DNA of 64,000 nt, taken from Aquimarina latercula DSM 2041. GTDB lineage: Bacteria > Bacteroidota > Bacteroidia > Flavobacteriales > Flavobacteriaceae. The stretch spans positions 283,780-347,779 of the forward strand of contig NZ_KE387185.1 in NCBI RefSeq assembly GCF_000430645.1. The letters run 5' to 3'. The position numbers and the translations under genes were made by a program. Each line of letters opens with the position of its first letter. Position 1 is the first letter of the stretch. A model generated the notes under the pieces. That model did not search any database and was not told the origin of the DNA. It was given only the letters and a program-made list of their open reading frames with translations. This document shows, piece after piece, positions 1-12,200 of the stretch.

Positions 1-1951
1 ATCTTTCTTCTTCAGCCAACCTTGCAGCTTCTTCTTCTTGTTTTAATCTCTCTTCTTCAGCTAATCTTGCAGCTTCTGCTTCTTGTTTTAATCTCTCTTC
101 TTCAGCTAATCTTGCAGCTTCTGCTTCCTGATCTTTTTGTACCGAAACTTCTCTTTCTAGTGTTTTCTGAGACTCTTCTCTTCTTCTCTGCTCTGCCATC
201 TCCAGCTCTAACTTCTTCTGAGCCGCTAATCTTTCTTCCTCAGCCTTTTGCTCAGCTATTTCAACTTCCAATCTCTTCTGAGCAGCCAATCTTTCTTCTT
301 CAGCTTTTTGTTCAGCTATTTCAACTTCCAATCTCTTCTGAGCAGCCAATCTTTCTTCTTCAGCTTTTTGTTCAGCCATTTCAACTTCCAATCTCTTCTG
401 AGCAGCTAATCTTTCTTCTTCCTCTCTAGCTGCTTGAGCTTCTGCTTGTTTTCTAGCTTCTTCTGCAGCTACTTCTTGTCTCTCAAGCTCAGCAGCTTGT
501 TGGGCAAGTCTAGTTGATTCTTCTGCTTTTCTTCTCTCTTCAGCTTCGGCTTCAGCAGCAGCTTCTTGTTGTTCTGCTTCGGCTTCTCTAGCAGCTTCTT
601 CTGCAGCTATTCTAGCCTCTTCTGCTTGTATTCCTGCAGCTTCTTCTGCTTTTCTTCTCTCTTCAATTTCTAATTCAAGATTTTTCTGAGCAGCTATTCT
701 TTCTTCCTCAGCCTTTTGCTCTGACATCTCACGCTCTAATTTCTTTTGAGCTGCTAAGTCTTCTGCTTGCTTATTGAGTAGTTTTACTTCTTCTTCTCTT
801 TGTAAAGCTAATTCTCTTGCTTTTCTAGCTTCTTCTTCTTTAGCTTCTTGAATAGATCTCTCTAATCTATTCATTGTTCTTTGTGCCTGACTCAGAGAAT
901 CTCCTCCTGTCCTCTGTAGTTCTCTTATTATTTTATTTTGATCTAAGATCTCTTTCTTAAGTCTTCTAATTTCAGAATCCCTCTGTAATGAACTTTTTGA
1001 AGAAATATTTCGTCTTTTCCTTCTACGTTCTTCTTTAGCAAAATTAAACGCCAGTCCAAATTCGTGTGTAGCTCCGAACTCAGCAGCCGTAGCATCTCCA
1101 CCGATACCTGGTTCAACAGTATAGCCTATAGAAACCACTTTTGTAATATTTGCTCCAATTCCTATAGAACCTCCATAAAAACTATTATAACCAAGTTGTG
1201 CCCATCCGTATTTTGGTATTTCGAATAACACATTACCTCCATATCTTAAATCCTGTTCACCTGGTTTAGAGGCATAAACCATTCCACGCAATTCATTATC
1301 AATTCTTCTCCAATCTAATTCTGTTGTGTACATTACATGACCTGAATATTCGAAATTATCAGTTAGTAATTCGCTCGCAGTAAGGTTATAAGTAACTAGG
1401 TTTCCAACGGATACACCAACATCGAAATTACCATAATTGAAGTTTACACCAGGACGTAATAAAAACACAGAGCTATTTTCGTAATTATTAATTATGTCAT
1501 CATTTACTTGTGCCTCATCAAGATTACTTTTTAAAGCACTTTGGGAATAACTTAAATTTACCCCAAACGTAAAATTCATGTCTCTGTTAAGTTCTATATT
1601 ATATGCATAATTTAATGTAGCGCCAAAAAACCTAAATATCCCGACATTCTGCTGAAACAAACCAATACCTATTCCTGTTTTTTCCTCGAATCTAGCAGAA
1701 TAATTAAGAAAATATGTCTGAGAATTATCACTAAAACTTGCTCTAGGGTTTCGATTATATATGTTTATTGAATTTTTATTTTCTCTTACCAAAGAAAAGG
1801 TAGGATTAAACATAAATCGATTATACTTAAGAGAATTATGTAACGGAATATCTGAAGGCAATATACCTGATGTATTAGATGATCCATCTTGTGAATGCAC
1901 AAGGTGTGAGCAAAAAATTAATGTGGATATATAAAGTATTTTTTTAATCAT
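1..1951 (-). CDS. PorP/SprF-family T9SS outer-membrane protein with long C-terminal coiled coil (partial, runs off left edge)
   Basis: The reading frame starts at 1951 and is still open at base 1 (650 codons seen). It begins with a signal peptide (MIKKILYISTLIFCSHLVHS, then QDG). Residues about 22-303 read like a PorP/SprF beta-barrel: alternating short strands and phrases such as YNRFMFNPTFSLV, GVNLSYSQSALKS and SIGYTVEPGIGG. SprF-type proteins help export or anchor T9SS cargo with type B C-terminal domains. After a basic linker (EERRRKRRN, about 305) the rest is an uninterrupted Ala/Glu/Gln/Lys/Arg coiled coil made of 20-residue repeats (core AAQKRLEVEIAEQKAEEER) and then 15-residue repeats (core AARLAEEERLKQE). 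Ordinary SprF proteins are about 300-350 residues, so the coil at least doubles the length. The start lies 3 bp after the stop of the upstream Ig-like gene, so the two are probably one operon. The barrel family call is fairly firm; the role of the coil is unknown, and a further domain may follow off-window. Confidence 0.85.
   Translation of the reverse strand, partial: MIKKILYISTLIFCSHLVHSQDGSSNTSGILPSDIPLHNSLKYNRFMFNPTFSLVRENKNSINIYNRNPRASFSDNSQTYFLNYSARFEEKTGIGIGLFQQNVGIFRFFGATLNYAYNIELNRDMNFTFGVNLSYSQSALKSNLDEAQVNDDIINNYENSSVFLLRPGVNFNYGNFDVGVSVGNLVTYNLTASELLTDNFEYSGHVMYTTELDWRRIDNELRGMVYASKPGEQDLRYGGNVLFEIPKYGWAQLGYNSFYGGSIGIGANITKVVSIGYTVEPGIGGDATAAEFGATHEFGLAFNFAKEERRRKRRNISSKSSLQRDSEIRRLKKEILDQNKIIRELQRTGGDSLSQAQRTMNRLERSIQEAKEEEARKARELALQREEEVKLLNKQAEDLAAQKKLEREMSEQKAEEERIAAQKNLELEIEERRKAEEAAGIQAEEARIAAEEAAREAEAEQQEAAAEAEAEERRKAEESTRLAQQAAELERQEVAAEEARKQAEAQAAREEEERLAAQKRLEVEMAEQKAEEERLAAQKRLEVEIAEQKAEEERLAAQKRLEVEIAEQKAEEERLAAQKKLELEMAEQRRREESQKTLEREVSVQKDQEAEAARLAEEERLKQEAEAARLAEEERLKQEEEAARLAEEER
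5..130. repeat. 45-bp tandem repeat inside the PorP-like gene
   Basis: Almost three copies of a 45-bp unit (core cttcagctaatcttgcagct) encode the 15-residue unit AARLAEEERLKQEAE on the minus strand. The array probably continues beyond the left edge. Confidence 0.8.
181..430. repeat. 60-bp tandem repeat inside the PorP-like gene
   Basis: Four consecutive copies of a 60-bp unit (about 181-240, 241-300, 301-360, 361-420) encode a 20-residue coiled-coil unit on the minus strand. The three copies from 241 to 420 differ at only a few bases; the copy at 181-240 is more diverged. Degenerate relatives of the unit reappear at about 680-760. Confidence 0.9.
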
Positions 1952-1954
1952 AAA

Positions 1955-4003
1955 TTATCTCATTACTGTAATTGTCCCCTTTTTAACGACTGTACTACTT
2001 CTAGAAATTATATAATAATAAATAAGTTCACTTGCTTGAGATGCAGAATCATTTGGCCAATCTGCATTATAGCCTCCAGTTTTTTGGAAATCTATTTTTC
2101 CATTCGATGAATAGATAGTAACTTCTACATCATTTTCACTGAATGAATTTGGTAAAACCCATGAATCATTTGCAACATTTCCTCCAGGTGTAATAACATT
2201 AGGGATTAATTCTGATAATGCCGCTGGTCCTCCAACCACGGCAGTTTGTGTATCAACCGTACATAAAGAAGTACTTATTCTGGCAAAGTAGTTTCCATCT
2301 TCTGTTACCGTTAACGTATTTGTTGTTTCGCCATCTATTAGAACTTCTTCTCCATTTTCAATTATATACCACTCATATGTAAAATTCGCATTTAATGGCG
2401 CTGTCAACACAACAGACTCTCCTGGTTCTAAAACCGGAGGCGTAATATCCAGTACTATATCACTAGATAAAAAATCAATAGGTAAATTGTTTGAAACAGC
2501 ATCTGGTAGACCTCCAGGTATAAAAATACCTCTTAATTCAAAACTTCCACCGCTATCCGAACGACTTACATCTAACGACAAAGAAGTCTCACCAGTTGAG
2601 ACTCCATCATTAAACCATTCGAAATCGAAAAAACCAAATTGTTCCGTTGTCAACGGAACCCGATCTCCTGTCGAGGTTATTCCCACCATTTCCGTCAATG
2701 TTATTGTAATTGGGTCCTGTTCACAATCAACGACTTCCTCAGGTGCTATTACAATATCAAATCTTTCTGCTGATCTTATTATAGTTTCTGAAGACAACAT
2801 TGTCATACATGGATCATCCGGAAATAATGCGTCAATCTCTATTCTATAATCCCCAACTCCATTTGCTGGTACATCAAAAGTAATTGTTGGACCTGTTGTA
2901 ATTCCTTGAATTAAAACATTCGTATCTCGTATCCATCTAAATGTACTACCGATTGGGGCATCAGTTTCTACCGTTAAAGTTAATATCTGTGTTGGTAACA
3001 ATATCAAACCTTCTGGAAGTGGAGCTGTAATGCTTGAGCCCTCATTAGTAACTGTTACTAGATCCGTAGTTAGCGTACAATCCTCACTTAATTCTATTCG
3101 TAAAGTATACTCTCCACCGAAATCATTATCGGGTAAAATTATGTTTGGAGAAATTTCTCCATCCAATTCTTCACCATCCTTTATCCACTGATAGTTATAT
3201 GAAAAATCTATTAAACTTGCTCTTAATTCTTTGAACTCATCAGGGCAAAACGAAAAATCATCATCCGTAACTATAGTAATATCATCAGGATTAATCAACG
3301 AAGCATCCACAGCATTCGATCTATTAAGGGGATTGAAAAAGTTATTACATAATCCTAGAGGAACTCTTGCTATATATCTTCCTACTTCTGTGATTATTAA
3401 AGATGGGCTATTTTCTCCGGGAATTATTGCTCCATCCTTTAACCACTCCCATTTCAATGTGTTTACATCTATCGAGTTGTCATTTTCATCTCTAACTTCA
3501 ACAGCTATCTCCTTAGCAAATGAGGCTACATTACAAAAAATTATCTCATCCCTTCCATTTAAAATTATTTCTAAATTATCATCAAAAAAATGAAATGCTA
3601 TTGCATCAGAAATTTCACTAATTATATCAACCTCTGAAGCTCGGACCCGTATTCTAAAATCATCACTGTTAGCATTAGTGGGTACCGATATATCTGTGAA
3701 ATTGATGTTAGAAGTCGCAGCGGTTCCATTATTTGGACCCGTAACTCTTCCTAATTCTGTTATGTCAGATTGATTTGCAAAACTTCCTGTAGGGTCTGAA
3801 AGTTCCAAAATAAACTCATTATTTGTTGGTAATGCATTACCAGGTGATAACTCCGCAGTAAAATCAAAACCATTAGTCAACGTACCACAGGCTTGTGGAG
3901 CCGAAGTAAGAGAAGGTGGACCTATATTACGCTGCGCTTTGGCAACATGGATTCCCATTGCCAAAACGATCATGACGATTAAGAGGTTAAGTCTTTTATT
4001 CAT
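1955..4003 (-). CDS. Secreted Ig-like repeat protein with gliding-motility type (CHU_C, type B) T9SS C-terminal domain
   Basis: About 682 residues. The frame is open to 4051, but the start at 4003 gives a proper signal peptide (MNKRLNLLIVMIVLAMGIHV, cleavage after AKAQ). The middle holds about five Ig/PKD-like beta-sandwich units, each with the pattern W-x-x-D-G ... G-x-Y-x-x-R (WEWLKDG, YQWIKDG, FRWIRDT, FEWFNDG, YEWYIIENG). The last about 85 residues (PNVITPGGNVANDSW ... GGYNADWPND ... YYYIISR ... KKGTITVMR) match the gliding motility-associated C-terminal domain used as a type B sorting signal by T9SS. It is followed directly by a PorP/SprF-like gene, the usual arrangement for this cargo class. 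Likely a cell-surface or released adhesin-like protein; the ligand is unknown. Confidence 0.85.
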   Translation of the reverse strand: MNKRLNLLIVMIVLAMGIHVAKAQRNIGPPSLTSAPQACGTLTNGFDFTAELSPGNALPTNNEFILELSDPTGSFANQSDITELGRVTGPNNGTAATSNINFTDISVPTNANSDDFRIRVRASEVDIISEISDAIAFHFFDDNLEIILNGRDEIIFCNVASFAKEIAVEVRDENDNSIDVNTLKWEWLKDGAIIPGENSPSLIITEVGRYIARVPLGLCNNFFNPLNRSNAVDASLINPDDITIVTDDDFSFCPDEFKELRASLIDFSYNYQWIKDGEELDGEISPNIILPDNDFGGEYTLRIELSEDCTLTTDLVTVTNEGSSITAPLPEGLILLPTQILTLTVETDAPIGSTFRWIRDTNVLIQGITTGPTITFDVPANGVGDYRIEIDALFPDDPCMTMLSSETIIRSAERFDIVIAPEEVVDCEQDPITITLTEMVGITSTGDRVPLTTEQFGFFDFEWFNDGVSTGETSLSLDVSRSDSGGSFELRGIFIPGGLPDAVSNNLPIDFLSSDIVLDITPPVLEPGESVVLTAPLNANFTYEWYIIENGEEVLIDGETTNTLTVTEDGNYFARISTSLCTVDTQTAVVGGPAALSELIPNVITPGGNVANDSWVLPNSFSENDVEVTIYSSNGKIDFQKTGGYNADWPNDSASQASELIYYYIISRSSTVVKKGTITVMR

Positions 4004-4610
4004 AGCTATCACATCAGTTAAATTTGTGTGAATATATGCAACATTAATCAAGCGATTTGGGGCGCTTGTTGATAATGTTGTTAATATAAATATTGTAAAG
4101 TCATAAAATTATGAATTAAAAATTTATATCAAACCAATTTTTCGTTTTTTTTTGTAATAATATTCTTACTTCGTTTTGAAGAGTATGATTACATCTCTAA
4201 AAACATAAAGTATTAGTAGTAATTATTTATATTAAAACATTGATTATCAATATTTTACATTAAAAAAATATACATTAAAAGTTGCTTAAAAAAGCAAGGT
4301 TTTACATTTTTTACCGACAAAAATCAAAAATTTTTTGAATGAAAAAGTGAAAAAAAAAATAATTTTTTGATGTTATGCGCACATCATAAACACCTAAAAA
4401 AGACAGTTTTTGCCGATTAAGTGTACTAATTTTATAGAATTATTAACCAAATTTAACGTTAATTATTACAGAAAAGCTTATCATAAATATCACAAACATG
4501 TTTGGAGAAAAAATTGCAATAATTTTCCTTAAATATTATCTAAAAAGGATATACTTTTTATTAACAAACGTTTAAATAAATATGAGGGAATATTCCCTGA
4601 AAATATACAT
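4004..4610. other. Gene-free AT-rich region upstream of the T9SS pair
   Basis: About 600 bases with no credible gene. It should hold the promoter of the minus-strand T9SS operon, but I see no convincing TTG/TAnnTTTG pair on that strand near 4003. It contains a 14-bp perfect palindrome AGGGAATATTCCCT (4585-4598) and a small hairpin with arms TGATGT (4369-4374) and ACATCA (4381-4386). Confidence 0.5.
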
Positions 4611-4662: not shown

Positions 4663-5184
4663 TTACTCATTAGATGTCTTTTCTCCGTTAAGTTCTTCTA
4701 TAATTTTATCTGTAAGATCTAATTCTTCCTTAGCGTAAAACAAGTTTTTCACCTCTGTTTCTCCATAGATATAAGTATATCCATTTTTCTTACCATACTC
4801 TTTTATAAAACCTTCTACTTTTGAAATTATAGAATCTATTTCAGCTTGACTACCTTGCTGAATTTCTTGCATTCTTGTTTGCTGTTCTCTTTGTAAGCCC
4901 TGTTGTTTCACCATCAGCTCCTGTTCTTTCTTTTCTCTATTCGTTTGAGACATTGATTTCATAATATTTTGGTATCCCTGTACCTCAATCTGAAATTGTT
5001 TTGCTTTCTCTTCTAATTCTGCACGTACTTCATTATTCTTCTTAGTCCACTTTTCTTTAGCGGTCTTCATTTCATTAAAATCCGATACCACTTTTGTATT
5101 ATTTACAAAACCAGTTTTCTCAATTTGTTGATTGCAAGAAGTCAATCCAATTATCGCAACAGCAATCCATATAAAATTTCTCAT
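4663..5184 (-). CDS. OmpH/Skp-like periplasmic chaperone, predicted lipoprotein
   Basis: 173 residues. The N-terminus is a lipoprotein signal peptide with lipobox LTSC (Cys17). Residues about 30-125 form a long charged helix pair (EKWTKKNNEVRAELEEKAKQ ... KEQELMVKQQGLQREQQTRM), and the C-terminal part (VEGFIKEYGKKNGYTYIYGE) matches the closing strand region of the OmpH/Skp family, which shields outer-membrane proteins in the periplasm. Soluble Skp proteins are periplasmic; this one appears lipid-anchored, which is common in Bacteroidota. The gene is monocistronic, with a TAACTTTG element upstream and a terminator downstream. The family call is good; the client proteins cannot be read from the sequence. 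Confidence 0.8.
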   Translation of the reverse strand: MRNFIWIAVAIIGLTSCNQQIEKTGFVNNTKVVSDFNEMKTAKEKWTKKNNEVRAELEEKAKQFQIEVQGYQNIMKSMSQTNREKKEQELMVKQQGLQREQQTRMQEIQQGSQAEIDSIISKVEGFIKEYGKKNGYTYIYGETEVKNLFYAKEELDLTDKIIEELNGEKTSNE

Positions 5185-6356: not shown

Positions 6357-6372
6357 TGTTCCACGTGGAACT
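6357..6372. other. parS centromere-like site 1
   Basis: TGTTCCACGTGGAACT differs from the ParB-binding consensus TGTTnCACGTGnAACA only at the last base. It contains a 14-bp perfect palindrome (6358-6371) and starts at the stop codon of the small membrane protein gene. Confidence 0.8.
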
Positions 6373-8733: not shown

Positions 8734-8749
8734 TGTTCCACGTGGAACA
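8734..8749. other. parS site 2
   Basis: Exact TGTTCCACGTGGAACA, 12 bp upstream of the mnmG start codon. It is the first of three sites spaced exactly 38 bp start to start. Confidence 0.88.
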
Positions 8750-8771
8750 CTCTCTTTATTAAAAAATAAAA

Positions 8772-8787
8772 TGTTCCACGTGGAACA
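8772..8787. other. parS site 3
   Basis: Exact TGTTCCACGTGGAACA, extended to a 20-bp palindrome (8770-8789), in the mnmG-ybeY intergenic gap. Confidence 0.88.
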
Positions 8788-8792
8788 TTAAT

Positions 8793-8842
8793 AAATGAAA
8801 AACTAAAGATGTTCCACGTGGAACATCTTTAGTTTTTCATTT
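8793..8842. repeat. 50-bp perfect palindrome centred on parS site 4 and the ybeY stop
   Basis: Bases pair outward from the centre (8817/8818) without a mismatch for 25 bp on each side, ending at 8793 and 8842. As RNA it would be a very stable hairpin at the end of the ybeY message and may also act as a terminator or RNA stabiliser. Confidence 0.85.
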
Positions 8843-9225: not shown

Positions 9226-12200
9226 TAGTCTTTCTAAAATATTCCTGCACTTTACGCTTATAATTCTCGCGCAAAGGTAATACTTGTCTGTTTAATATTT
9301 CCGTTGTATTAAAATATTGTTTCGCCTTCAATATTTGCTCATTATTATCATTACTGAATTTCTTGTTATTACTTCTACTTTCTCTCCTATCCTCTTCTCC
9401 TTGTTCTATAGTAGCATCCTCTAATTTGAGTAATTCATGTTTTAAATCCATCATCTTACTCAAGGTGTTGTTATTAAAACCTTTCTCCAACAACTCACCC
9501 TCAATCTGCTCCATTTTATTTAAAAGCCCACTTCCTTTTCCTTTTCCAATTCCTTCCTTCTTCAACTTGTCTTCTAATGCGTTACGCAATTGTTGTTGTT
9601 GCTTATATATTTCATATAACTCACCATTCATATCCTCTTTTTGCATCTCAGATTCACGTTGACCATCTTTTCCATTTTTTCCTTTCTCACCTTTTTCCTT
9701 TCCTTCTTTGCCACTTCCTTTACCTTTTCCCTTTTCTCCATCTTCACCAGATGATCCACTATTAGATTCCCCTTTCTGTTGACCTTCTTTTTTCCCTTTT
9801 CCCTTTTTAGCACCTTCCTTCATTTTCTCATTTAACTCACCCTGCTTTTTAATGATATCTGGTAATTGGAACCCTTTAGACTTATTCCCGCTTTTACCTT
9901 TTCCTTTAGCTGACATACTGTTTTGCATCTGATCCAAAATTATACTTAGAAAATACGCCAGATCATTAGAACCAGTTACCGCATACTGTTGATTAGCCGT
10001 TCCCTGAATCACTTGATTCTCCGCCAAACGCTCTAATGACTTGTCCAAATTAAACTCTATATCCGTAAGCTTACCTGTAACTTCATCAGATATTTTAGGC
10101 CTACGCAACGCTAATGCATACAAACTGTCATCTATATGTATAAAATTTTCTCTTAATACACTTTGCCTTTTCAATTTGCCAGAATATGTTGGGTTATCAT
10201 TATTAATTCCTTTAAATTCTTTCATCAATCCCTCCTGCTCAATTGAAAAATCGACCAAGTTGTCTAGAATTTGTCTCAACATTTCCATATCCTCTTGTTC
10301 CTGTTCTCCTCCACCCATCTGCATTTGCATCTGCATACCCTTGCTCATTTGCTTCATTTTTTCAGCTGCACTCTTTTGATTTTTTTTAGCCTCAGATTTA
10401 TTTTTCTTCTCCAAATTATCACTCGCATCTTCTTGTTCCTTTGTCACATCCTCCTCATCTTTTTTGTTTTCATCTAACTTCATTGGTTTCTGTAAATCCT
10501 CATTATCCTTTCTAAGATCCTCCATCTCTTCCTTAAACCTTTCAAACTCTTTGTTTAAATCCTCCTGCTTTTCTTTTGTGTTTTCCTCTCCCTTTTCAGA
10601 TAATTCCTCCTGCTTCTCAGCCATTTCCTTCAACTTATTAGCTAACTTTTCATGCTTTTCTATCACATAATACCTTTTGGTTAATTCTAATAATTGCTCC
10701 AAATTTTTCTTTAAATTCTTATTCTCCTTTGCCAGTTCCTCCAGCTTCTCCGTCAGCTCCTCCTTTTGCAATTTTTCTGCTATCTTATTTATTTCATCTA
10801 AAAGCTTTTCATTTTTCTTTAGCTTTTGTTCGTTGCGTTCTAACATTTCCTTTAATGCATCTTTAAAAGGTTCCTCTTTCTTTTTGTCTTCCATCTGCTC
10901 CAAATTATCCTTCAACTTTTTAGAGAAATTCTGCATCATCTTCTCCTGTTCCTTTTGCCTTTTTAAATAATCCTCGAGCTTCTTTTTGTCATTATAATCC
11001 AATTGCTTTTTCTCCTTCTGAAGCTTACTAATACTCTTTAAATCCTGTTCTTGAGACTTAAACTTTTTTAATGATTTATTTAATCCAGATATAGCCTGAT
11101 TCTGTTCATTAAGTCTTTTCTCCTCCTCTTCATTCGTGGTTAATTTTCTATAACTAAAAACCTGGCTTTTGGTGCTCTTACTTTTATTTATTTGGTCATT
11201 ATCAAAAACTTCGAAATAAAACTCGTAATTAACACCTTCCTTTAAATCCAAATTTCCAGGAAACACGTGTATAAATTCATCAAATACCGAAGAATTTATA
11301 CCTATACTTTTTGTTTCTTTATTTGATTCCTGATCGCTATCATAATACACCAACCTTAAACCATTAAGACCATAATCATCACTAACTCTACCAAAAAAAT
11401 ACATAGTATTATTATCTACAGTATCCTTTTCTGCTGTCAACTTAATCTCTGGATATTGATCTTTTATTACATTTACATTGAAGGAAATATTATCATAATC
11501 ATGCACATTTTTATTAGATGTTGTAATCCTATAATCCCAATTGCTATATAAAACATTTCTATATTTAAAGTTAGAATCACTCTTTTCGAAAACATACGAA
11601 GAATCCATAGTAACCATTTTTACTTTTTCTGTATTTCTAGTTCTAACTTTCCATTCCACTCTTGTTCCTTCCGGTACAATTGCATTACCCGAACTTTGTA
11701 AGGCTTCATCCTTTTTTCCGGTATATGAAGGATAATCCAATTGCATAACAAAATCTAATAATGTTGGTACTGGTACTACCTCTAATTCATAGTCCTTTGA
11801 AACAACATCGTTAGAAGACAAAACAAAATCTATAGAATTTTTTGGTTGCGTAAATATATATTCATAAGATCCAACGTCTGTATTCTTTAAAAAATAAATC
11901 TCATCGTTATATTTTATCTGCACCTCTTCAGGAAGAACCTCACCAACCGTTTTAACTTGTAATAAAAAATCCTTGTTTTCTAGAGCATTTAGGGATTTAT
12001 TAACCACGAAAAACTGAAACGGCGCTGGAGGTTCATATGCAGTTTCGTAATTAACTACACGTTTATAACTCTCCGAAAACCAACTACCACTATTAAAAAA
12101 ACTTACTAGTAAAAAAACTAAAACAGGAATCAAGGCATATTTTAAATATTTAGCATTTTTCTTAAAATCTATAGCTAATTTAAAAGGTATAGGTTTTAAT

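Follow-up and report, generated by a model that had tools for sequence, protein, structure and literature searches.

What protein is encoded at the open left edge of a 64,000-nucleotide stretch of Aquimarina latercula DSM 2041 (contig NZ_KE387185.1; G000:C1:283780-347779, hereafter the window), where a PorP/SprF-type β-barrel continues into a long, charged, repeat-bearing helix, and what could such a tail be for? The first-pass annotation of the window took this layout to be without a described counterpart. We conclude that the gene is sprD of the Flavobacteriaceae gliding operon sprC-sprD-sprB-sprF, a known gliding gene whose architecture is under-described and whose repeat-bearing helix is unusually long. 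The parts of sprD that lie in the window are the following.

2..1951, minus strand: sprD, N-terminal 650 codons, a single open frame that is open at the window start
1046..1849, minus strand: PorP/SprF β-barrel domain, residues 35-302 (PF11751 and TIGR03519)
2..1021, minus strand: long charged helix, residues 311-650, continuing past the window (from composition and the model of the L122 ortholog)
214..421, minus strand: 60-bp tandem array, 3.5 copies, 95% matches, score 367 (Tandem Repeats Finder)
1..127, minus strand: 45-bp tandem array, 2.8 copies in the window, 95% matches, score 226 (Tandem Repeats Finder)

The barrel was matched by the Pfam family PorP_SprF (PF11751) with 143.3 bits over residues 35-302 (cut-off 22.3) and by NCBIfam TIGR03519 with 133.3 bits over residues 2-304 (cut-off 90.55). 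With these profiles covering the barrel and a type B cargo gene adjoining it, SprD is a PorP/SprF membrane protein of the type IX secretion system (T9SS). Four other profiles reported on the two pieces of SprD (DUF4070, KaiA and TraF_2 of Pfam, PRK12935.1 of NCBIfam) were below cut-off and were discarded. Sequence searches of the PDB gave no chain at E 0.01 with the barrel profile A1, and three matches with unrelated titles (E 0.28-0.84) with the SprD sequence P0001. Behind the barrel, the 340 residues from 311 to 650 contain no proline and three glycines, and are composed of glutamate, arginine and alanine at fractions of 0.26, 0.13 and 0.19. The first-pass annotation had read the gene as a PorP/SprF barrel with a C-terminal coiled coil of more than 300 residues grown from the 60-bp and 45-bp units. 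The barrel, the repeats and the length are borne out, as at least 340 residues form charged helix. The term coiled coil is not settled by the hydrophobic periodicity, which is weak and does not distinguish such a coil from a single charged helix, and "long charged helix" is the safer wording.

The gene was also correctly supposed to run past the window. The 45-bp repeat enters a run of 484 N (9297-9780 of our locus L009), after which the same 15-residue unit reappears. The remainder of sprD, at G000:C1:282297-283295, is a 332-residue end piece consisting of repeat, a linker and two domains of ~75 residues before a TAG stop. At its counted length the N run breaks the sprD frame; therefore this length is presumably an estimate. 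A gap of 484 N in mid-gene and a frame that does not close across it are what a misjoining of barrel, helix and end domains by the assembly would leave. However, a congener (L102) carries sprD intact and free of N as a single 1157-codon frame, and its barrel and tail are 98% and 99% identical to those of the window gene. We observed one-frame sprD in 19 of 19 congeners fetched, a set chosen for long frames, while 36 of the 43 tail-bearing genomes of the genus have frames of 990-1666 residues, and both ends of the gene are present in 67 of the 68 complete named genes described below. The one-frame genes of the congeners rule out a chimera across the N run, and we give an assembly artefact practically no chance.

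The identity of the gene follows from its neighbours. Only 3 bp upstream of sprD ends the following gene.

1955..4051, minus strand: sprC-like T9SS type B cargo, 698 residues from the first TTG, with CHU_C at its end (Pfam, NCBIfam)

Its product scored 30.1 bits with Pfam CHU_C (cut-off 27) and 16.5 bits with TIGR04131, below the cut-off of 35. Downstream, sprD is followed by the gene of a giant adhesin that combines a PA domain, SprB repeats and, at its end, CHU_C/TIGR04131; after it comes a PorP/SprF protein of 325 residues (SprF) that has CGC plus two residues at its C-terminus. The four genes share one strand with small gaps, in the order sprC-sprD-sprB-sprF, and therefore the fusion gene is sprD. 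This confirms the T9SS and gliding setting proposed in the first-pass annotation, and at the same time removes its claim that no protein of such a layout had been described. A study of Rhodes et al. from 2011 reportedly deals, to judge by its title, with the sprCDBF operon. Elsewhere, sprCDBF is described as an operon in which sprC and sprD support SprB function (PMC5879114), and sprD is named as required for gliding (PMC11885536).

A few peculiarities were observed around these genes. The SprB-like giant adhesin is split into two halves by an in-frame stop, at ~852 of L009 (G000:C1 ~274851), for which inactivation and sequencing error are both possible; the congener adhesin is an open frame of 4787 residues up to the edge of the fetched stretch (L103), with a 237-residue start in L102. 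Two loci, L108 and L112, have two type B cargo genes in tandem upstream of sprD, not one. At positions 4663-5184 of the window, on the strand of the sprC-like gene and upstream of it, a periplasmic protein of OmpH/Skp type is encoded (Pfam OmpH, E 5.3e-29).

A further comparison was possible with Flavobacterium johnsoniae, where a sprD deletion primer starts 33 bp ahead of the sprD stop and reads GKMAIVK (PMC9870892). A heptamer that lies equally far from the stop (register 0-2) and shares at least three of the seven residues was found in 65 of 67 named complete fusions vs 14 of 527 other open reading frames of the same loci. The tail of our own gene speaks against the assignment on this point, as it agrees with the heptamer at three of seven residues solely with a one-residue shift and at 0 in registers 0-2. 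The primer itself had no exact match in the genome contigs, and none of 397 family genomes matched it at up to two mismatches.

How does the protein end? An OmpA-like domain, which the first-pass annotation had proposed to look for as a sign of peptidoglycan anchoring, is ruled out: the SprD sequence P0001 gave no OmpA match, all 21 OmpA places of the genome lie outside sprD, and the end is of SPOR type instead. SprD ends in two SPOR-type domains, as judged from the predicted fold of an ortholog, and the assignment rests on this fold and on other orthologs. Of 10 genomes scanned, 4 have fusions that exceed the Pfam SPOR cut-off (26.9, 25.6, 22.0 and 21.2 bits), as do 2 of 4 fusions scanned whole (L073, 43.2 bits; L228, 28.8 bits). 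With 44 end domains of named loci aligned, the end domain of the L122 ortholog was modelled at a mean predicted local confidence (pLDDT) of 88.6 as β-α-β-β-α-β. Foldseek placed the SPOR domain of DamX first among solved structures (E 0.17, probability 0.82) and CwlC next, and a second structure comparison gave Z-scores of 6.0 for DamX and 5.7 each for RlpA and DedD. Several results weigh against this assignment. Our own tail reached 14.7 bits with Pfam SPOR, below the cut-off of 21, and the SPOR scan of our own genome listed three places, none of them in sprD; the whole fusions of L102 and L122 likewise list no Pfam SPOR match. The Foldseek E-values are weak (best 0.17), the Z-scores of 5.5-6 are middling, and the top-ranked chain (Z 7.2) is a Burkholderia exported protein whose title is not SPOR.

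The SPOR class binds denuded glycan, and Q270 of RlpA, a glutamine highly conserved in SPOR domains, contacts it (PMC6895207). We observed that this glutamine is absent from 139 of 140 SprD SPOR units (135 distinct sequences, as some genes, e.g. those of L079 and L122, stand in two sets), both units of our own protein included; the exception is L233. Four neighbouring alignment columns were counted for this, as the alignment, which used 9 of 13 ordinary SPOR segments, places the glutamine one column off in three of the five ordinary SPOR domains that bear it. These five are to be set against 8 of the 13 ordinary SPOR domains of these genomes in which it is also missing. The loss is thus a hint, not proof, that SprD may no longer bind glycan.

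SPOR-type units akin to those of SprD were also observed outside sprD. A 702-residue protein of our genome (L069 9782-11887, G000:C8), with an M56 peptidase, a PPIase and a TonB_C domain, ends in a SPOR-type unit that is 59% identical to the second unit of SprD, and a similar second match occurs in several congeners; from these sequences, it looks as if a copy of the module had been added to another membrane protein. Loci L049-L064 and L081 encode proteins of ~800-1130 residues with one to three N-terminal SPOR-type units and no barrel. Two of them were scanned (L049 and L061) and resembled PorE in their beta-propeller repeats and OmpA end, with Pfam SPOR over cut-off solely in L049 (46.9 bits).

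Next, we asked how widespread the fusion is. A barrel profile built from 15 SprD-type proteins found barrel relatives, not all of them necessarily SprD, encoded in at least 552 of 594 candidate stretches of genome contigs, which rules out a protein unique to this genome. The best 80 of these at least 552 relatives are the named loci, which include the genera Hyunsoonleella, Winogradskyella, Lacinutrix, Psychroserpens, Algibacter, Tamlana and Gelidibacter. A barrel frame was obtained from 75 of them (L143, L166, L172, L181 and L196 were dropped), and after removal of 7 genes cut by the locus end 68 complete genes were left. The fusion that the first-pass annotation had suggested seeking in related genomes is present in 67 of these 68, with the SPOR-type end; the exception, L187, contains N. 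A CHU_C gene lies at most 400 bp upstream in 73 of the 75 parsed loci, and a gene of more than 600 residues lies within 900 bp downstream in 64 of the 68 complete ones. In our own genus the tail was found in 43 of 52 genomes; it was from these 43 that the 19 congeners were drawn for long frames, and 7 of the 43, our own included, have frames of less than 500 residues.

When 99 genomes of the order were sampled, families other than our own turned out to carry a short form with frames of 483-527 residues. In all ten that were fetched (L221-L230), 78-144 residues separate the barrel from a single SPOR-type domain. Among 15 order-sample loci, barrel and SPOR stand clearly in one frame in 13, while L231 joins a partial barrel to SPOR in one frame and L234 has two frames. 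The two parts share a frame in 28 of 29 foreign loci, L032 being without a barrel match, and are split over two frames in L076. GldJ was over cut-off in 25 of 25 SprD-bearing genomes of the order sample vs 38 of 74 others. The former set was hand-picked for frames of at least 450 residues, with G476 and G486 (481 and 557 residues, partial barrel, GldJ over cut-off) excluded.

The barrels themselves separate in the same manner. In a tree of 51 barrels, 27 of SprD type fell on one side of a 100/99 branch, apart from 11 SprF and 13 other barrels (one gene was counted both as SprF and as other). In a tree of 58, all 44 SPOR-tailed barrels are parted by a 100/99 branch from the 14 that have no such tail; here 27 of 28 foreign fusions were taken by barrel length and several duplicate other rows. 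Both trees carry long-branch warnings, and few barrels lacking the SPOR tail were sampled. The first-pass annotation would have given up its view of the layout had the coil been seen in many characterised SprF proteins; this, taken literally, was not found, and among the barrels compared the tail marks the SprD type and not SprF.

In contrast to the constant tail, the helix is the changeable part of SprD. Across the 19 congeners, the spacer between the barrel and the first SPOR-type domain measures 508-1152 residues, whereas the distance from the first SPOR-type domain to the stop is 191 residues in 19 of 19. The spacer has 363-550 residues in the 67 named fusions, with a single one of 1050, and 78-144 residues in the ten short-form genes fetched from other families. 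The 45-bp unit is present in 18.4 copies in the intact congener L102, where tandem arrays span ~1.1 kb of the spacer; in L119 such arrays account for ~0.4 kb of 3.5 kb. Growth of the spacer by repeats is, at the level of sequence, plain in L102 and partly visible in L119, and turnover of the 45-bp and 60-bp repeats may be a part of the cause of its fast change in length. A full-length model of the L122 ortholog is mostly helical between barrel and SPOR, with a mid-part of low confidence; at a mean pLDDT of 70.3, a predicted template-modelling score (pTM) of 0.39 and helix values partly below 50, it was used solely for the layout of barrel, helices and SPOR. As a straight helix, the 595-residue stretch of L102 would measure ~88 nm. 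The periplasm is roughly 20-30 nm wide, and therefore such a helix would have to run along the envelope or be folded back.

What might a barrel with such a tail do? Type B cargoes remain bound to their own PorP/SprF carrier (PMC12635249; PMC9143113), and 9 of 12 type B genes of F. johnsoniae adjoin a sprF-like gene (PMC12618676). From cargo-carrier binding and gene adjacency, the simplest reading is that SprD carries SprC: its barrel would take SprC from the translocon and keep it on the cell surface. In F. johnsoniae, a Cys-X-Cys disulfide fastens SprF to GldK, a part of the moving track (PMC12635249). Our own SprD has a single cysteine, Cys14, at the signal peptide and none in the end piece (the N run being unread), and past residue 30 cysteine is absent from 64 of the 67 named fusions. 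Lacking mature cysteines, SprD needs some other hold, for which the tail is the obvious candidate. It is likely that the helix and the SPOR-type domains replace the disulfide hook of SprF and grip, non-covalently, a structure under the outer membrane, the helix acting as a spacer. SprC of F. johnsoniae is stated, with a thesis as the source, to move on the gliding track (PMC12635249). Because of this reported movement and the missing glycan glutamine, we favor the moving track over a fixed peptidoglycan strand as the target of the grip. We rate it as somewhat better than an even chance that SprD is a carrier of SprC whose tail couples the pair non-covalently, to the track sooner than to peptidoglycan. 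A more specific version is tentative: SprD could be a cysteine-free rider on the track, its SPOR fold having lost glycan binding and gripping either the GldJ-GldK-GldN track or a SPOR-bearing partner, with the helix as a tow bar of variable length. If so, one operon would supply two adhesin complexes that use one track through two clutches, a covalent one for SprB-SprF and a non-covalent one for SprC-SprD.

Several points count against coupling to the track. The movement of SprC rests on the cited thesis, and its bearing on SprD on the adjacency from which SprC is taken to be the cargo; the coupling of SprD to a partner is itself predicted from sequence. The GldJ count, which in itself speaks for the track, is uncorrected for kinship, and GldJ also occurs in genomes without SprD. 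Moreover, the known ligand of the SPOR fold is glycan, so that a wall anchor is possible, if weakened, and the PorE-like proteins of related genomes, in which comparable SPOR units stand beside an OmpA domain, would suit a role at the wall. SprD would then hold on to peptidoglycan with the helix as a leash, and either fix SprC to the wall or steady the outer membrane beside the track; one protein would do the job proposed for PorP plus PorE in P. gingivalis. The fold and family of the tail, the glycan binding of the SPOR class (PMC6895207), the pairing of PorP with the wall-binding PorE (PMC9143113; PMC12618676) and the presence of units akin to those of SprD beside OmpA domains are all consistent with such an anchor. 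However, 139 of 140 units lack the contact glutamine, SprC is reported to move (PMC12635249), and spacers of 508-1152 residues, if helical, far exceed a radial leash. We regard the anchor as a minority possibility, though one to be taken seriously.

Alternatively, the barrel might be a mere membrane anchor, and the tail might organise the track or the SprB-SprF complexes, making SprD a structural helper of the SprB and track apparatus. The statement that sprC and sprD support SprB function (PMC5879114) suits this role, as does the fall of both SprD and SprF in a lolA1 mutant (PMC11885536); SprB and SprD were also lower in lolA1 and lolB1, with the authors' significance not reached in both (PMC11885536). 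Against such a role, the barrel is conserved as PorP/SprF throughout its length, and in 73 of 75 loci the gene just upstream encodes a type B cargo, an arrangement usual for cargo and carrier (9 of 12 in F. johnsoniae; PMC12618676). A helper role is thus improbable, and coupling of a SprC-SprD pair to the track is the reading that we retain.

Elsewhere in the window, the palindrome TGTTCCACGTGGAACA was observed in three exact copies at 38-bp spacing and in one copy with one mismatch (8734-8825 and 6357-6372), that is, 4 matches vs 0 expected. The copies, which resemble parS sites, adjoin a 623-residue gene that is presumably mnmG/gidA.

The above results give SprD a definite architecture of barrel, long charged helix and SPOR units, which is found in several families of the order. 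The role of sprD is given without domain detail in the passages cited (PMC11885536, PMC5879114), and we found no paper joining SprD and SPOR in the open-access literature searched, subscription papers and Rhodes et al. 2011 lying outside it. Set beside the disulfide hook of SprF, this architecture makes the coupling of different adhesins to one track directly testable.

Finally, we compared SprD with the known systems that it resembles. Like sprD of F. johnsoniae, the window gene stands between a type B cargo gene and a sprB-like gene, and the C-terminal strand of related fusions fits the residues encoded by the primer, a comparison limited to that heptamer; within our own genus, the spacer (508-1152 residues) is mostly longer than in the 67 named fusions (363-550, one 1050). 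With SprF and the other PorP-type carriers of type B cargo SprD shares the barrel family over its full length. However, the SprF of this operon, at 325 residues, has neither coil nor SPOR, SprF of F. johnsoniae carries the Cys-X-Cys disulfide to GldK (PMC12635249) whereas SprD is without mature cysteines, and SprD lies across the 100/99 branch from SprF. The tail shares its predicted fold, and in some orthologs the Pfam score, with the SPOR domains of DamX, RlpA, DedD and CwlC, but our own copies stay under the Pfam cut-off and lack the conserved glycan-contact glutamine. Units of SPOR type that resemble those of SprD occur in the PorE-like OmpA proteins of related genomes; the two scanned combine them with beta-propeller repeats and an OmpA end and have no barrel.

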